From Sphingomonas sp. (lineage in GTDB: Bacteria; Pseudomonadota; Alphaproteobacteria; Sphingomonadales; Sphingomonadaceae): a DNA stretch of 42,403 nt. Location: assembly GCA_025356055.1 (NCBI GenBank), contig JANXUU010000034.1, positions 1 through 42,403 of the forward strand. Direction: 5' to 3'. The translations under genes and the position numbers were made by a program. This document shows positions 3,366 through 31,221 of the stretch, piece by piece (position 1 is the first letter of the stretch; every line of letters begins with the position of its first letter). Under the pieces are notes generated by a model. That model was not told the origin of the DNA and searched no databases. It saw only the letters and a list, made by a program, of their open reading frames with translations.

Positions 3366-3902
3366 TCACATGCTCAGTCCGCGCTCCTTGCGCGCCTTGG
3401 CGAGCTTTTTGAGCACCATCTCGCGCTTCAACCGGGACAGATGGTCGATGAACAGCACGCCTTCCAGATGATCCATCTCGTGCTGCAGGCACACCGCGAG
3501 CAACCCTTCGAGATCTTCCTCATGGGCCACACCCCGCTCGTCGAGCCACCGCGCGCGCACTCGGTCCGGGCGCATCACCTCGGCATATTGGTCGGGCACC
3601 GACAGGCAGCCCTCAGTGTAAGGCACGTCCTCGTCGGACTCGCCGAGAATCTCGGGATTGATGAACACGCGCGGTTCCTTGACCACTTCGCCGCCCTCTT
3701 CCGCCGGCTCGTGGAGGTCCATTACCAGCACACGCCTGGGCACGCCGACCTGGACCGCGGCCAGCCCGATCCCCGGTGCATCGTACATCGTCTCGAACAT
3801 ATCCGCGATCAGTGCGCGCAGCTCGTCATCGACCTTGTCGACTGGGGTCGAGATCTGGCGAAGCACGGGATCGGGGGTTTCAAGAATGCGAAGAATAGTC
3901 AT
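3366..3902 (-). CDS. def: peptide deformylase
   Basis: Removes the N-formyl group from nascent proteins in the cytoplasm, acting after Fmt-formylated initiator tRNA has been used; fmt lies on the other strand 700 bases away. All three signature motifs are present in the 178-residue protein: [10 protein letters not shown] (44-53), EGCLSVP (97-103, metal ligand Cys99) and QHEMDHLEG (140-148, metal ligands His141 and His145, catalytic Glu142). Length is normal. It lies 31 bases downstream of recR on the same strand and is probably co-transcribed with it. ATG 3902 gives the expected [15 protein letters not shown] start. Confidence 0.97.
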
Positions 3903-3933
3903 GGCCGCGAATTAGTCTTTCGCGTCCGCCACT

Positions 3934-4527
3934 TCAAGCGACCGGCCGCCGTGCCCGCAACGCCTGCGCGAGCGTCCCCTCGTCGAGATAATCGAGTTCG
4001 CCGCCCACCGGCAGGCCATGCGCGAGCTGGGTCAACCGGATCGGGAATTTTTCCAGTCGTTCGGCAAGGTAATGCGCGGTGGTCTGTCCCTCGAGCGTCG
4101 CATTCATCGCCAGCACCACCTCGTCGATCCCGCCAGCCGCGACCCGCCGGACCAGCGTGTCGATGCCGAGGTCCTCGGGCCTTATTCCCTCCAGCGCCGA
4201 CAGCCGTCCGCCAAGAACGTGATAGCGCCCCGGAAACAGCCGCGACCGATCGAGCGCCCACAGGTCGGCGACCTCCTCCACCACGCACAGCAATCGCTCG
4301 TCGCGCCGTGGGTCCTGGCAAAGCTGGCACGGGTCGACCGTATCGACATTGCCACAGGTCGAGCAGGTCACGAGCTTGTCCGCCACCGCCTGCAATGCGG
4401 CAAGCAATGGCTCCATCGCCGCCTCGCGCTTCTTGACGAGGTAAAGCACGGCTCGCCGGGCCGACCGCGGGCCAAGTCCCGGAAGCCGCGCCAGCGCCTG
4501 GGACAGGGTGTCAAGTTCGCCGGCCAT
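3934..4527 (-). CDS. recR: recombination mediator RecR
   Basis: RecR works with RecO/RecF to load RecA onto gapped DNA. The 197-residue product starts at ATG 4527 ([20 protein letters not shown]) with the helix-hairpin-helix GLGPRSARR, a four-Cys zinc site (Cys55, 58, 67, 70) and a Toprim domain (from [17 protein letters not shown] onward; [12 protein letters not shown]). The open frame extends much further upstream, but that extension is antisense to fmt and lacks RecR similarity, so it is rejected. recR and def form a minus-strand pair divergent from fmt-truA, with 54 bases between the recR and fmt starts. Confidence 0.96.
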
Positions 4528-4581: not shown

Positions 4582-5490
4582 ATGCGGATCATCTTCATGG
4601 GCTCCCCCGACTTTGCCGTCCCGACGCTCGACGCCATCGTCGCGGCCGGGCACGAGGTCGCTTGCGTCTACACCCAGCCACCGCGCGCGGCGGGGCGCGG
4701 CAAGGGCGAGCGGCGAACTGCGATCCACGACCGCGCCGAGGAGCTTGGCATTTCGGTTTGCCACCCGACCACTCTGCGCGATCCGGCCGAACAAACCGCG
4801 TTCGCCGCGCTGGACGCCGACGTCGCGGTCGTCGCCGCCTATGGCCTGATTCTGCCCGAACCTATCCTCGCCGCGCCGCGTCTTGGCTGCGTCAACGTCC
4901 ACGGTTCGCTCCTCCCCCGCTGGCGCGGCGCGGCCCCCGTCCAGCGCGCGATCGAGGCCGGCGATGCGGTCACTGGCGTAACCATCATGCAGATGGAAAA
5001 GGGTCTCGACACCGGCCCGATGCTGCTCAGGCGCGAGGTCGCAATCGACCGCAAGACGGCCGGCCAACTTACTGAAGAGATTGCCAAGCTCGGGGCCGAG
5101 GCAATGGTCGCGTGGCTCGCCGACCCGTCCCGCACCCCGCCCCAACCGCAACCCGCCGACGGCGTCACCTATGCCGCCAAGATCGACAAGGCCGAGGCGC
5201 GCGTCGAATGGACCCGCGACGCCGCGACCATCGAACGCCAGATCCGCGCCTTCGCCCCCGTTCCCGGCGTCTGGTTCGAGGCGAACGGCGAACGCATCAA
5301 GCTCCTTGCCGCCGACGTCGTCGACGACACCTCCGGCGAGCCCGGCGCGATCCTCGACGACGAGCTCACCATTGCCTGCGGATCCGCCGCCCTCCGCCCG
5401 CTTCGCCTCCAGCGCGCCGGCCGCGCCGCAATGACCCCCGCCGAGTTCCTCCGCGGCTTCCCGCTCCCCGCCGGGACGATCCTCGCATGA
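4582..5490 (+). CDS. fmt: methionyl-tRNA formyltransferase
   Basis: Formylates Met-tRNA(fMet) with 10-formyl-THF. The 302-residue product begins [19 protein letters not shown]. The hydrolase/transferase domain carries Asn105, His107 ([16 protein letters not shown]) and Asp143 (KGLDTGPML), the catalytic triad of the family. The C-terminal tRNA-binding domain follows at about 205-300. ATG 4582 is chosen by homology; the upstream open frame is antisense to recR. The TGA stop overlaps the truA start as ATGA, so the two genes are translationally coupled. Confidence 0.97.
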
Positions 5491-12872: not shown

Positions 12873-13301
12873 CTAGAAGCTGGAATACGCCTCGTTACCG
12901 ACGAAACCCATCTTGGTCACTTTCGCCCGTTTGGTGACCGCCAACACTTCATCGACCAGCTCATAGCGCGCGTTCGGCTCGGGCTGGAGGTGGAGTTCGG
13001 GAACCGGGTTCATCTGCTGCGACACGTCGAGATACTGGCGCAACTGGGTCAGCGTCACCGGAGTCCCATTCCACAGCACCTGGCCCGCCTGGGTAATGAC
13101 TAGCACGTTCTTGGTCGGCTCGACCGGCGGAGGCGGGGCATTGGTATTCTGCGGCAAGTCGAGCTTCACCGCATGGGTCTGCGGCGGGATCGTGACGATC
13201 AGCATGATGAGTAGCACGAGCATGACGTCGATCAGCGGCGTCGTGTTCATTTCCATCATCGGCTGACCTTCGGCATTAGAGCCGGTGGTTTGCATCGCCA
13301 T
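12873..13301 (-). CDS. exbD: biopolymer transporter ExbD (second copy of the operon)
   Basis: A 142-residue inner-membrane protein with one N-terminal membrane segment containing the proton-carrying Asp in NTTPLIDVMLVLLIM, followed by a periplasmic domain. It forms the proton channel with ExbB that drives TonB. It lies 17 bases after another exbD and shares the same fold but only moderate similarity, as in the tonB-exbB-exbD1-exbD2 operons of Xanthomonas and sphingomonads. It is the last gene of the operon, ahead of the terminator at 12818-12848. Confidence 0.94.
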   Translation of the reverse strand: MAMQTTGSNAEGQPMMEMNTTPLIDVMLVLLIMLIVTIPPQTHAVKLDLPQNTNAPPPPVEPTKNVLVITQAGQVLWNGTPVTLTQLRQYLDVSQQMNPVPELHLQPEPNARYELVDEVLAVTKRAKVTKMGFVGNEAYSSF

Positions 13302-13318
13302 GGCGATAAGCTCCTAAA

Positions 13319-13810
13319 CTAAAGACGCTGGACCGGGCCACCGGGGCCCGGCTGCGAAATGAAGCCAACCTTGGCGAAACCGGCGAGCTGCATCGTGTAG
13401 ATCGCCCCGCCGATACAGCGGTACGGCGTGTTGATGTCGCCGCGGATGTGCACTTCGGGCATATTGTCCTCGGTGATGTTCTGGGGCCCGCCGACCTTGT
13501 CGACCTGGGCCTTCAAATTGGTCACGGCGCGATCGAGCAGTTCCTTGGACGTCATCTTGGTCATGTTCCAATAGACGCCACAGCTTCCGTCGGGAAGGCC
13601 ATTGACCGAGAGCGAGACGTTCTCGGGCTTGGTCTGAGTCACTTCATAGCGAACCTTGGGCAGCTTGACCGGAATGGTCTGGATGACGACCGGAACGGTG
13701 ATCAGGAAGATGATCAGCAACACGAGCATGACGTCGACGAGCGGCGTCGTGTTGATGTCCGACATGGGCACGTCTTCATCGCCGCCTTCTTGCTTAACGG
13801 ACATGGACAT
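13319..13810 (-). CDS. exbD: biopolymer transporter ExbD (first copy of the operon)
   Basis: A 163-residue protein with a short cytosolic tail (MSMSVKQEGGDEDVPMSDI), one membrane segment (NTTPLVDVMLVLLIIFLITVP) carrying the conserved Asp, and a periplasmic domain. It contains an unusual periplasmic insertion with single Cys residues (GSCGVYW and PYRCIGG) not seen in the second copy, which could form a disulfide. It is third in the minus-strand tonB-exbB-exbD-exbD operon, 66 bases after exbB. Confidence 0.94.
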   Translation of the reverse strand: MSMSVKQEGGDEDVPMSDINTTPLVDVMLVLLIIFLITVPVVIQTIPVKLPKVRYEVTQTKPENVSLSVNGLPDGSCGVYWNMTKMTSKELLDRAVTNLKAQVDKVGGPQNITEDNMPEVHIRGDINTPYRCIGGAIYTMQLAGFAKVGFISQPGPGGPVQRL

Positions 13811-13876
13811 GAGCTGTGGCTTTCCTTCGATACTTCAAAAACGTGGCCGGACGGTTACCCGCCCGGCCGTTTGTGC

Positions 13877-14713
13877 TTAGCGGATCGACGGATCGGCCTG
13901 CGCGCCGGTCGAGGTCATGCCTGGGCGGAGCGGCTCGCTGCCGGGCTGGGTCGGAGCGGCACCGGACTTTGTCTGAGCCGAGCTCTTGACCGCCGGACCC
14001 GTCGCCGCGGTGACGCCGCGTGGCTTCACTGCACCGGCTGACATGATGTAGCCATGGACGTCGTTGGTGAACGCCGCGAGATCCTCGACGATCGACTTGT
14101 TGCGCCGGATCAGCCAGTTGTAGGCGAGCACCGCAGGAACCGCGACGACCAGACCGAGCGCGGTCATGATCAGCGACTCGCCGACCGGGCCGGCGACCGT
14201 GGTGATCGACGCATCGCCCGACGCGCCAATCTTGATCAACGCGCGGTAGATGCCGATGACGGTCCCGAACAAGCCGATGAACGGCGCAGTCGAACCGACC
14301 GTCGCGAGGAACGCGAGGCCTTCGCCGAGGCGGGCGCCGATGCTGCCTTGCGAGCGCGCCAGGCTGTTGGCCATCCAGTCATGCTGGTCGATCGGATCGG
14401 TCAACTTGCCATGCTGTTCCTGGGCGACGAGAGCGTCATCGACGATCGAGCGATAGGCCGAGCGCGCCTCGAGCTTGGTCGACGCTTCCTTGAGATTGGG
14501 CGAATTCCAGAAACTAGAGCGGACCTTGTTGCCCTGGTTCATGATCTTCTGCTGCTGCAAAAGCTTGGTGAACAGGATGTAGAAAGTGCCGATCGAGAAG
14601 ATCACCAGAATGATGAACACCGACCATGAAATCACACCACCTTCGTGGAGCGCCTGAAACAGGCCATAGGGGTTGTCACCTGCCGGAGCGGCTGCGGGAG
14701 CTGGATTCTGCAT
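13877..14713 (-). CDS. exbB: MotA/TolQ/ExbB-type proton channel protein
   Basis: A 278-residue inner-membrane protein with three membrane segments (near VISWSVFIILVIFSIGTFYIL, the FLATVGSTAPFIGLFGTVIGIYRAL region and the LIMTALGLVVAVPAVLAYNWL region), all matching ExbB. The N-terminus is Ala/Pro-rich and the C-terminal 50 residues are a low-complexity tail. It follows tonB by 35 bases in the operon. It supplies the rotor or stator ring that couples proton flow to TonB. Confidence 0.95.
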   Translation of the reverse strand: MQNPAPAAAPAGDNPYGLFQALHEGGVISWSVFIILVIFSIGTFYILFTKLLQQQKIMNQGNKVRSSFWNSPNLKEASTKLEARSAYRSIVDDALVAQEQHGKLTDPIDQHDWMANSLARSQGSIGARLGEGLAFLATVGSTAPFIGLFGTVIGIYRALIKIGASGDASITTVAGPVGESLIMTALGLVVAVPAVLAYNWLIRRNKSIVEDLAAFTNDVHGYIMSAGAVKPRGVTAATGPAVKSSAQTKSGAAPTQPGSEPLRPGMTSTGAQADPSIR

Positions 14714-14748
14714 ATTGGTCTTCCTTCAGAAAAGCGGTGGTGGTTCGG

Positions 14749-15414
14749 TTATTCGGCGGGAACCTTCCAGGTAATCCGCTGGGAGTAGGTATCGCTTGTC
14801 GGCTGGCCATTGCTGTCCATCGCCGGGCTGAATCGGGCGCGGCGCTTAAGGATATTGCACGTCGCATTATCCAGCGCCGAAGATCCGCTCGACGAAGTGA
14901 TGTTGCACCCGGACACGCGGCCATCGGTACCGATCGTTAACTGGACCGCAGTCGTCCCTTGCTCGTTCGCCGAAAGCGATGAGGTCGGATAATCCTCTGA
15001 TGAAAACAGCCCGATGAGGCTGCCTTTGGCGCGCGCCGATTCGCGCTTGACCGGCGGCGGCGGCGCCGGGGGAGCCGGTGGCGCGGGCCGGGCCGTCGGC
15101 GTGATCACCGGCGGCGGAGCAACTGACACCGTCTGTATCTGCGGCGCGATGATGTTCGTGCGCACCAGCGGCGGCGGCGCGACCACCTGAGGCGGCGGCG
15201 GCGTATCCGGCTTCTTCTCCGGCGGCGGCTTTTCCTCGGGCGGCGGCGGGGGCTCGGTCACGTCGAACGTCTTGAGATCGCTCGCTGCATTCTTGATGAC
15301 ATTATAGGCCAAGCCCGTCACCAAAGCATAGCCGAGGACGATGTGCAGAAGCGCCACGACGATGATTGACGCCGTCCTATTGGAGCTCATCTGCCTGCGA
15401 TTTGCGTAAGCCAT
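14749..15414 (-). CDS. tonB: energy transducer TonB (operon copy)
   Basis: First gene of the tonB-exbB-exbD-exbD operon. The 221-residue protein has an N-terminal membrane segment (TASIIVVALLHIVLGYALVTGL), a Pro/Lys-rich spacer (EPPPPPEEKPPPEKKPDTPP and a later PAPPAPPAPPPP) and a TonB C-terminal domain (GTDGRVSGCNITSSSGSSALD). The ATG 15414 follows GAGGAGAGTTGCGGCTTA, with AGGAG some 11 bases upstream. A 25-bp inverted repeat lies upstream at 15497-15521. Confidence 0.93.
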   Translation of the reverse strand: MAYANRRQMSSNRTASIIVVALLHIVLGYALVTGLAYNVIKNAASDLKTFDVTEPPPPPEEKPPPEKKPDTPPPPQVVAPPPLVRTNIIAPQIQTVSVAPPPVITPTARPAPPAPPAPPPPVKRESARAKGSLIGLFSSEDYPTSSLSANEQGTTAVQLTIGTDGRVSGCNITSSSGSSALDNATCNILKRRARFSPAMDSNGQPTSDTYSQRITWKVPAE

Positions 15415-15496
15415 TAAGCCGCAACTCTCCTCGTATGGCCGTGGTAGTTTCCACGTTGGCCCGGGCCCTGAATACCCGAAACCACAAAATCCACAG

Positions 15497-15521
15497 CTCG
15501 ATGCTTCAACATATCATCGAG
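15497..15521. promoter_or_regulatory. inverted repeat upstream of the tonB operon, possible operator
   Basis: CTCGATG (15497-15503) and CATCGAG (15515-15521) form a perfect 7-bp inverted repeat with an 11-base spacer, 83 bases before the tonB start in a 193-base gene-free stretch. It could be a repressor site or an mRNA hairpin. It does not resemble a Fur box. Confidence 0.3.
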
Positions 15522-29162: not shown

Positions 29163-29217
29163 GGGGTGGGGTTAGCAAGCGCTTCTGATCAGGGGTAGTG
29201 CCCGCCCGCCCCTAAAC

Positions 29218-29256: not shown

Positions 29257-29391
29257 ATCATCGGCCCCTCCCGCGCCACCGAAATCCTCCAGCGCAAACG
29301 CGCCCTCACCCTCCCCATGATCCGCAAGATCGCCAGGGAATGGCATGTCCCCGAGCGACTGTTGGTGGGAGAGTATGCGGTGCGGCGGTAG
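29257..29391 (+). pseudogene. C-terminal remnant of a HigA-type (XRE) antitoxin
   Basis: The plus frame ending at TAG 29389-29391 reads IIGPSRATEILQRKRALTLP then MIRKIAREWHVPERLLVGEY. This is the end of the helix-turn-helix domain and tail of HigA-family antitoxins (the pattern S(R/A)xxEILxxKRxLTxxMIRxL...WxIPxxxLI). The N-terminal half is missing, replaced by the REP-like palindrome just upstream. No toxin gene accompanies it. The frame is too short and lacks a start, so it is called a remnant. Confidence 0.7.
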
Positions 29392-29530
29392 GGAGGAATG
29401 TTGTCGACGGGCTCTTCCGCATGTGCGCCGCGAGCGCCATCACGTTACGTGAAACCAGCCCAATAAATCGGGATCGACAAAGGGGAACCCGCCACCTACA
29501 TCTCAGACCAACGGATGAGTGAGGCCGAAA

Positions 29531-29812
29531 ATGCCTGATGGAAATTTGATGAATGACGATCAGCCTGAAGGCGTTACCGTGCGGCAGGAGTACATTAACG
29601 GATTTCAGATTGGACTAAGCAACGCTGACCTTTCTGTCGTTGGATTGTTGGACAATCAGCCGATCTTGAAAATTAATATGTCTTATACGATTGCTAAGAC
29701 GTTGGCCGTTAAGCTGTCGGAAATGATGGCTAAACTCGAGAAGGCTACGGGTCGCGATATTATGACGACGGACGACGCTGGCAGCGGCCTTGAGGAAGCG
29801 ATGAAACAGTGA
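29531..29812 (+). CDS. unknown protein A of a three-gene accessory cassette
   Basis: A 93-residue protein from ATG 29531 (GAGG 6 bases upstream; GTG 29519 and ATG 29549 are alternatives). It reads as a compact alpha/beta protein: VRQEYINGFQIGLSNADLSV, a VGLLDNQPILKINMSYTIAK stretch and a helical C-terminus. I do not recognise the family. Base use is far more AT-rich than the surrounding genes (some lines near 40% GC), and codons such as tta, att and aat are common, which points to transfer. Its TGA overlaps the GTG start of gene B (GTGA), so the two are coupled. Confidence 0.75.
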   Translation: MPDGNLMNDDQPEGVTVRQEYINGFQIGLSNADLSVVGLLDNQPILKINMSYTIAKTLAVKLSEMMAKLEKATGRDIMTTDDAGSGLEEAMKQ

Positions 29813-30402
29813 TTGACCATTCAGCTTTATCCGCTCCGCTTCGTGATTTACGCCGTGTGGCAGCCTTGCCTGACGGCTGGCATTTTGGCGCGGGAGTCAG
29901 CCCAACGGTGGCGGCAAAGTTGAACGCTACCGCACTGACGTTGACTGTTGCCGGAGCAGGTGTTTCAAAATTTGAATATTTTCCAGAGGAATGTGGCGGA
30001 ATCCTAATCATCGCCTATCGCGGATATGAATCCGCGGAAATCCTTGCGACAGGCGATGGGACTTACGAACTCGCTTTTGAGAACGATCAGGGCTTGAGTC
30101 CCGCAAAAAGCCTGGCATCGATCAATGAGGTTCAAGCTGATTTGGAGCATCGCGGGTGGCGATTACGGAAATCATCAGACTCCTTCACCCGAGTCATTAC
30201 AGTGAGCGAAAGAACCGGTACACTTCAGTGGCATTTCGCCCAAGCGGCAGCGGTATTTCCGTCATCGATACTGCATGTGTCGAATCTGCCGGGCTTTCAT
30301 GCTGCGTACACGCCGAAAGATATTATCCCAGGCGTATCCGAGGTTCCCCCTCAATATTCTGGCGTATCAAAACTACGGAACTTGTTACTGGTTGCGAGCT
30401 AA
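29809..30402 (+). CDS. unknown protein B of the three-gene cassette
   Basis: A 197-residue frame from GTG 29809 to TAA 30402. The N-terminal 110 residues look like a real domain: LRDLRRVAALPDGWHFGAGV then SPTVAAKLNATALT and YFPEECGGILIIAYRGYESA, an LPxGWxxGxG-containing module seen in many uncharacterised proteins. The last 80 residues lie over gene C in another frame and are Ser/Pro-rich with little structure, so the functional part may be the first 115 residues, with the tail a read-through or overprinted extension. Function unknown. Lower GC, as for gene A. Confidence 0.65.
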   Translation: MIDHSALSAPLRDLRRVAALPDGWHFGAGVSPTVAAKLNATALTLTVAGAGVSKFEYFPEECGGILIIAYRGYESAEILATGDGTYELAFENDQGLSPAKSLASINEVQADLEHRGWRLRKSSDSFTRVITVSERTGTLQWHFAQAAAVFPSSILHVSNLPGFHAAYTPKDIIPGVSEVPPQYSGVSKLRNLLLVAS

Positions 30403-30569
30403 TCCAGCAGACGACGCCAACCGGTGATGTCTGCCACTACAACATCGTAGGACTCTCACGTCACCAGGCAAGCGCATTACTGCAAACTAAGCAAATTACC
30501 GACTTTGAAATTTGTGCGGCGGATGGACCCCGCCCGCTTAATCCCGCAGATCTGCCTCCCTCACTTTAG
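30156..30569 (+). CDS. unknown Cys/His-containing protein C of the three-gene cassette
   Basis: A 137-residue frame from GTG 30156, with GGAG 8 bases upstream, to TAG 30569. The protein looks genuine: LLHPSHYSERKNRYTSVAFR, GISVIDTACVESAGLSCCVH, YYPRRIRGSPSIFWRIKTTE and GDVCHYNIVGLS. Conserved-looking Cys and His residues (C, CC, H, then CH) could bind metal. It overlaps gene B by 247 bases in another frame, unusually long. If real, B and C share sequence; if not, a frameshift has extended B. Family not recognised. Confidence 0.65.
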   Translation: MAITEIIRLLHPSHYSERKNRYTSVAFRPSGSGISVIDTACVESAGLSCCVHAERYYPRRIRGSPSIFWRIKTTELVTGCELIQQTTPTGDVCHYNIVGLSRHQASALLQTKQITDFEICAADGPRPLNPADLPPSL

Positions 30570-30686
30570 TTAGGTCTGACGCTATCGCGCATCAGCAAGG
30601 GCCAGCGATCGACTTTCACCGCTGGCCAGACCAAGGCGCTCAAGGGCGCTGCCAAGGACGAAAAGAAGAAACGAGGCGCATCATGA
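30570..30686 (+). pseudogene. orphan 3' tail of an unidentified gene, coupled to the XRE gene
   Basis: The frame ending at TGA 30684-30686 reads LSRISKGQRSTFTAGQTKAL then KGAAKDEKKKRGAS, a Lys-rich C-terminus with GC-rich codons like the core genome. It has no start. Its stop overlaps the XRE gene start (ATGA), the arrangement expected if it were the first gene of a toxin-antitoxin-like pair whose 5' part was lost when the three-gene cassette arrived. The parent family is not identified. Confidence 0.5.
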
Positions 30687-30970
30687 ACCCGACCGATTTC
30701 GACAGTCTCCAGCGCGGCCTCGCCGAGGTTGCCGCCTTTCGCGCAGGCCGGCGCGAGGGTTTCATTATCCATGCGCCGGTCGACGTTCGCGCCGTCCGCG
30801 CTCGGACCCATCTCACCCGCGCCCGCTTCGCCGAGCGCTTCGGGCTCGACCCGCGCACTCTCGAGCAATGGGAGCAGGGCCGCCGCCGGCCCGACAAGAG
30901 CAGCGAAACCTACCTCCGCCTGATCGAGACCGCCCCCGACCAGGTCGCCGCCCTCGTCGCGCGACTCTAG
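30683..30970 (+). CDS. XRE-family transcriptional regulator, antitoxin-like
   Basis: A 95-residue protein with a C-terminal helix-turn-helix (VRAVRARTHLTRARFAERFG then LDPRTLEQWEQGRRRPDKSS) and a short N-terminal dimerisation-like part. The size and layout match HigA/MqsA-like antitoxins and their relatives downstream of RelE/HigB-type toxins. The ATG overlaps the stop of a truncated upstream frame, so a partner gene seems to have been lost. DNA binding and autoregulation are inferred from the family. Confidence 0.8.
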   Translation: MNPTDFDSLQRGLAEVAAFRAGRREGFIIHAPVDVRAVRARTHLTRARFAERFGLDPRTLEQWEQGRRRPDKSSETYLRLIETAPDQVAALVARL

Positions 30971-30992: not shown

Positions 30993-31051
30993 AGCCCCTC
31001 TCCCTTTGCGGGAGAGGGAGGACTCGGCGAAGCCGAGCCAGGGTGAGGGGA
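30993..31051. repeat. palindromic intergenic repeat, copy 1
   Basis: Sequence of the form AGCCCCTCTCCC...GGGAGAGGGAGG... ending GGGTGAGGGGA, with an internal CTCGGCGAAGCCGAG hairpin. It starts just after the XRE gene. An inverted copy lies at 31159-31221. Confidence 0.75.
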
Positions 31052-31158
31052 CGGTGGTGCCGACGGGGGCTGGCCTGGTGCCGGAGTCTTTCTTCCATTC
31101 CTGCTGATCTGTCTGACGAGGAAGTGCAACACAAGGGCATTGCCCGATCGTACCACAG

Positions 31159-31221
31159 TCCCCTCACCCTCCCACCGCTTCGCGGCGGGCCCCTCCCTCT
31201 CCCGCACGGGGGAGAGGGGCT
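31159..31221. repeat. palindromic intergenic repeat, copy 2 (inverted)
   Basis: TCCCCTCACCCTCCCACCGC ... GGGGGAGAGGGGCT is the reverse complement of the layout of copy 1, with a different internal hairpin (CCGCTTCGCGG). The two copies face each other across 107 bases that hold no gene. Confidence 0.75.

Follow-up and report, generated by a model that had tools for sequence, protein, structure and literature searches.

A mobile three-gene cassette in Sphingomonas, possibly toxin-antitoxin-like, with a long out-of-frame gene overlap

Results

Organization of the A-B-C cassette

The DNA analysed here (the window) comprises positions 1 to 42,403 of contig JANXUU010000034.1 from the Sphingomonas sp. 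assembly GCA_025356055.1. It carries three small, overlapping forward-strand genes, here called A, B and C, that recur together as a mobile set. Gene A (29531..29812) most likely begins at the ATG at 29531, inside the open reading frame (ORF) 29519-29812, and would encode a small protein of ~93 amino acids (aa). Gene B (29809-30402; 197 aa) meets the end of A in the sequence GTGA, and gene C (30156-30569; 137 aa) begins well within B. Consequently, B and C share 247 nucleotides (nt), 30156..30402, in which B residues 117-197 are read out of frame relative to the first 82 codons of C. These coordinates confirm the layout described in an initial annotation of this DNA, which had also credited the genes with their own ribosome-binding sites. 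For C, such a site can be pointed out: a Shine-Dalgarno-like GGAG lies within B at 30144..30147, 8 nt upstream of the C start, and a purine-rich stretch, as judged by eye, precedes the C start in nearly all of the nine homologues described below.

The cassette is more AT-rich than its surroundings, as the initial annotation had stated. Its GC content is 0.48 in A, 0.53 in the part of B outside the overlap, 0.51 in the overlap, and 0.54 in the remainder of C, compared with 0.64 directly upstream, 0.59 in the 113 bases past C, and 0.71 in the helix-turn-helix gene beyond.

Searches with the A, B, and C proteins of the window yielded no usable match in Pfam, NCBIfam, PADLOC, or PHROGs, and for these four libraries the absence of a nameable family stands. 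Homologues of A and B were scanned in Pfam only. The window A protein matched no Pfam family at E values up to 1 and did not reach the curated scores for DUF3467 or BssS; stray matches of A were to phrog_7919 (0.098) and, among eight members of the A homologues, to BssS (0.0062) and DUF7801 (0.048) in one member each. The B homologues gave three stray Pfam matches (0.16-0.26). Eight members of the C family had no Pfam match at E values up to 1, RES included, and stray PADLOC matches among nine C homologues were to DrmD (0.021) and SspC (0.079), in one member each. Alignment of C with DUF952 and RES by hhalign also gave no match, but in this comparison the positive control failed too, and one RES row (L053) contained stops.

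Recurrence of the set

C was found at nine loci, the window included; two are on IMG/VR contigs (L004 and L026), and at least two classes are represented. Within the same genus or order, it occurs in G039 (L002), counted as one locus with JAIVIZ010000141 (L003, titled Sphingomonadales), as both are 6,221 nt long and encode identical proteins. Four loci belong to the same class (L012 to L015, from G182, G408, G426, and G213, respectively) and one to another class of the phylum (L022, from G589). L025 and L116, which repeat L004, and L028 and L029, which repeat L026, were not counted separately. B lies upstream of C and overlaps it at all nine loci, and A is present at eight, so that the set shows the recurring small, adjacent or overlapping genes of a toxin-antitoxin module. 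Because the phase in which B overlaps C is the same at every locus, the association is more than chance, and with A, B, and C together in other genomes, the proposed unit does not fall for want of co-occurrence. At L015, the locus without A, an unrelated 84-aa ORF with no Pfam match (3846-4100, reverse strand) occupies the place of A directly before B.

The set is rare in the genomes sampled. B matched 2 of 149 relatives, namely the window's own genome and G039. C matched 7 of 385 genomes of the class (the window's genome and two weak matches that were later dropped included), 2 of 398 genomes of the phylum (self included), and, among 346 from the order, self alone; these samples overlap and the counts are not summed. 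An A profile matched 4 of 289 class genomes (self included), all of which hold C, and A was found only beside B and C in the genomes searched. One weak C match, G160 (E 0.004), was rejected as it had no A-B-C among ORFs of at least 80 aa and no match in later searches; the other, G278 (E 0.008), was likewise left out of the count. No tblastn match was obtained with window A, B, or C or L026 C in plasmids, with window B or C or L026 A in phages, or with window B in genome contigs. Searches around G182 (16 genomes), G426 (11), and G589 (100 and 48) gave no copies beyond those already known.

A B homologue of 125 aa was also seen without C among the candidate stretches, on IMG/VR contig L115 (1094-1471; 28% identity, E 3e-13). 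Its neighbours on both sides are different and resemble genes for small and large terminase subunits. Judging from this protein, B may swap partners.

Mobility of the cassette

The A-B-C set is real and mobile. At L004, it lies inside a 3,067-bp element of the IS1595 family that carries passenger genes, has 26-nt terminal inverted repeats (TIRs; 2040-2065 and 5081-5106, 81% complementary) and an exact 8-bp target site duplication (TSD), AGCCGCAG, and encodes an IS1595-family transposase (PF12762, E 2.1e-25). L004 alone places the genes between TIRs bounded by a TSD together with a transposase, as expected of IS1595 passengers. At L026, an IS1595-family transposase gene (PF12762, E 2.9e-37) on the opposite strand adjoins the end of C, and a phage holin gene (PF23987, E 2.9e-11) lies upstream; no TIR/TSD pair stood out there. 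In a TIR/TSD search within 3 kb at the nine loci, in which contig ends curtailed the left flank of L023 and the right flank of L003, L004 scored 28, and the values of 22.5-25.5 that were the highest at L026 and the other loci were taken as background. For the window copy, the 3 kb on either side contained no TIR/TSD pair that exceeded background, and no transposase was noticed among the ORFs between 28000 and 32500. Mobility, as proposed in the initial annotation, is thus borne out by the same gene order in unrelated neighbourhoods, the L004 transposon, the IMG/VR contigs, and the absence of the cassette from a sister genome (see below).

Several further features accompany individual copies. 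Direct repeats of 272 nt (90%) and 74 nt (88%) flank the cassette of L012 (2999-3342 and 4759-5372); the repeat copy that was scanned contains the start of an HsdM N-terminal domain, so that a type I restriction-modification locus apparently houses this cassette. Near the L004 cassette are an HNH gene and a terminase-like gene whose match is below threshold. Divergent reverse-strand genes are found upstream of A at L004 (2109-2852) and L003 (2944-3462); that of L004 has weak MtlR, Abi_2, and DUF4145 matches (E 0.02-0.1).

The B/C overlap

The overlap between B and C measures 142, 220, 247 (three loci), 289, 292, 292, or 298 nt, with a phase that never varies. When the close copies were compared pairwise, the changes within it that fell on third positions of C codons numbered 50 of 91, 40 of 71, and 43 of 79 in the three comparisons, and over 36 pairs the mean identity across the overlap was 0.44 in the C frame versus 0.25 in the B frame. 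By these comparisons, C is the constrained frame. At four-fold sites of C, the proportion that differed was similar within the overlap (51 of 81) and beyond it (30 of 42; Fisher p 0.42, from a small sample that shares sequences and is near saturation), which indicates no measurable hold of the B frame on these sites.

The B frame is nevertheless open at all nine loci, whereas the third frame meets a stop within its first 98 nt at each of them. When C codons were resampled from pooled usage without changing the C protein, the B frame proved to be open longer than expected, with a combined P of 0.004 for nine loci and 0.008 for seven (one of three close copies kept), among loci that share ancestry. 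Single-locus P values were 0.045-0.2 and, across four codon models at eight loci, 0.009-0.33. The part of B in the overlap (~81 residues) resembles a passive shadow of C more than a conserved domain. We read it as a tail whose sequence is free but whose frame is kept open, and translation of C as beginning from a Shine-Dalgarno sequence of its own within B. The concern in the initial annotation that one gene might be a shadow frame applies to this tail and not to the rest of the set.

Predicted structures of B and C

The structural model of B is confident over most of residues 11-122, whereas residues 123-197 have a predicted local distance difference test score (pLDDT) below 50, suggesting a folded core of ~120 residues followed by a disordered tail. 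The core, encoded before the C start (residues 1-115; 29809..30155), is modelled as helix-helix-four strands-helix and gave a weak structural match to TriTu. The C model (pLDDT 75.9, predicted template modelling score 0.71) gave weak matches to ADP-ribosyltransferases (ARTs). Foldseek searches against viral models returned nothing at E <=0.001. The folds suggested by these matches are weakly supported predictions.

Seven Cys/His residues are invariant in C, and R8 and H11 are present in nine of nine homologues; C probably binds metal. The ART classes R-S-E and H-Y-E carry a conserved catalytic Glu. In C, E118 is found in only six of nine homologues; for want of a conserved catalytic Glu, C is not classed here as an active ADP-ribosyltransferase. 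A C profile also aligned to residues 161-260 of PDB 2p5i (BH3822) with E 1.8e-4; one invariant Cys/His residue is kept in this match, which is unexplained and does not appear in the structural matches shown.

Flanks and a variable insertion site

To the left of the cassette, positions 29258..29393 (forward strand) hold a higA remnant, as the initial annotation had noted. By blastn and alignment, its 136 bp are 97% identical to L110 938-803 of a sister genome, G045, one of the 149 relatives scanned with B. The reverse-strand gene further left, which we take from its sequence to be parC, encodes an N-terminal 200 residues 99% identical to those of G045. Of the 34 stretches from parC sites that were compared, five repeated genomes already represented; past base 29200, the window is matched only by two of the 34, both from G045. 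At the matching site, G045 has a complete higB (PF09907, E 1.3e-22), a gene without a Pfam match of its own that we presume from its position to be higA, and then a different sequence of ~800 bases that runs to the end of the contig and lacks the cassette. Because G045 carries higBA and other sequence in place of the cassette, the spot is variable, and the site beside higBA receives different accessory genes. Where the window has A-B-C, G045 has a 145-aa gene (L110 218-655) that weakly matches DUF4276 (E 0.042).

The gene tail that the initial annotation placed to the right of C is a 38-codon stretch (30570..30686, forward strand) with no Pfam match, perhaps, we presume, the end of a RelE-like toxin gene. 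It is followed by a forward-strand helix-turn-helix (HTH) gene of the NadS/MqsA antitoxin-like type (30683..30970), which flanks the cassette and is not a member of it. Its matches to the Pfam families HTH_31 and HTH_3 are above cut-off, and those to NCBIfam NadS (6e-08) and TIGR03830 (3.6e-09) are below. The region 31002-31211, downstream of this gene, may be an intergenic repeat of the REP-like kind: it has CCCTCTCCC-type sequence and inverted repeats, one of 20 nt (90%) and one of 54 nt (74%). Elsewhere in the window, 13000-15500 is a second stretch of lower GC (0.60-0.63), with reversed GC skew.

Discussion

We tentatively favour the idea that A-B-C is a mobile, three-gene, toxin-antitoxin-like module in which C is the toxin, B the antitoxin, and A an accessory protein, and give it a probability of roughly 45%. 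In such a module, the small, Cys/His-rich C protein with its ART-like predicted fold would act as the toxin, and the N-terminal ~120-residue domain of B, predicted to resemble the TriTu immunity protein, would be its cognate antitoxin. A, a regular partner, could serve as a second antitoxin or a regulator. Translation may be coupled, as A runs into B at GTGA and ribosomes making B would cross the start of C; the out-of-frame tail of B would then be a by-product that need only stay stop-free. As a mobile load, the cassette would serve addiction or defence. A toxin-antitoxin role had been raised in the initial annotation, and what now speaks for it is the gene layout together with the weak structural matches of C and B.

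The same observations can be read in other ways. A-B-C might, though we regard this as unlikely, be cargo of IS1595-family transposons with a different role, such as a helping or regulatory part in transposition, or a metabolic or stress-related benefit to the host. The L004 element, with the genes between its TIRs and TSD, and the transposase adjoining C at L026 would fit this idea; at the other seven loci, however, no TIR/TSD pair within 3 kb reached the L004 score (22.5-25.5 versus 28), no transposase was noticed in the ORF lists inspected, and the link to the insertion sequence may be recent. A role in anti-phage defence by abortive infection, with the toxin-antitoxin-like layout as the trigger, seems to us similarly improbable. 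It would suit that layout, carriage on IMG/VR contigs beside a holin gene (L026) and near HNH and sub-threshold terminase-like genes (L004), and the position of the L012 cassette between repeats that hold the start of hsdM. Nevertheless, carriage by phages is equally compatible with addiction, the neighbours inspected at most loci look like housekeeping genes, and the defence function suggested in the initial annotation has gained no direct evidence, as PADLOC recognized none of the window proteins and gave two stray matches among nine C homologues.

True dual coding, in which the overlap yields two functional proteins from the B tail and C, is less probable still. In its favour are a B frame that stays open over 142-298 nt at every locus while the third frame closes within 98 nt, and the resampling results (P 0.004, or 0.008 with one of three close copies). 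Against this, C four-fold sites change similarly inside and outside the overlap (51/81 and 30/42, p 0.42), identity in the B frame is well below that in the C frame (0.25 versus 0.44), the B tail is disordered in the model and varies two-fold in length, and the L115 homologue of B ends at 125 aa.

Among known systems, TreTu/TriTu consists of an Rhs ART toxin and its immunity protein from Salmonella (PDB 7zhm; PMC10469887). A-B-C differs in having no Rhs or secretion part, in its third gene, and in the Cys/His-rich character of C, and sequence searches of the PDB matched neither chain of 7zhm. KreTA is a prophage-borne type II toxin-antitoxin pair from Gammaproteobacteria, in which KreA is reported to be broadly TriTu-like and KreT RegB-like (PMC12487901). 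By these descriptions, rather than by sequence, KreTA and A-B-C are both small units that occur in prophages or phage-like DNA, and B, by its weak structural match, may resemble TriTu as KreA does; they differ in that C looks ART-like and KreT RegB-like, and in that A-B-C has three genes and KreTA two.

In contrast to B, which has no HTH family match, the antitoxins of RES-Xre and MbcTA are Xre-type or other HTH-like proteins, and C has no RES Pfam match. The IS1595 family is reportedly the subject of a 2009 paper by Siguier. The 3,067-bp element of L004 resembles the passenger transposons of this family, whereas around the window copy no transposase, TIR, or TSD stood out. We noticed no account of A-B-C in open-licence literature on IS1595 passengers, overlapping genes, TreTu, KreTA, or ART and tripartite toxin-antitoxin systems, in which the set has no name to search by.

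A bolder proposal, which we consider rather doubtful, is that A-B-C represents a new tripartite toxin-antitoxin family with a metal-bound, ART-fold toxin whose active site has changed, and that phages and IS1595 transposons carry it for addiction or defence. The toxin gene would start deep inside the antitoxin gene, whose frame would be selected only to remain open, so that antitoxin translation would govern toxin translation through an overlap that is stop-free and sequence-free. With overlaps that are 142-298 nt long and share one phase, the nine loci form a natural comparative set for asking whether a long out-of-frame overlap can be regulatory rather than coding. If our favoured interpretation is true, A-B-C would add an unnamed three-gene toxin-antitoxin family that four profile libraries have missed and of which one copy is clearly carried by an IS1595-family transposon.
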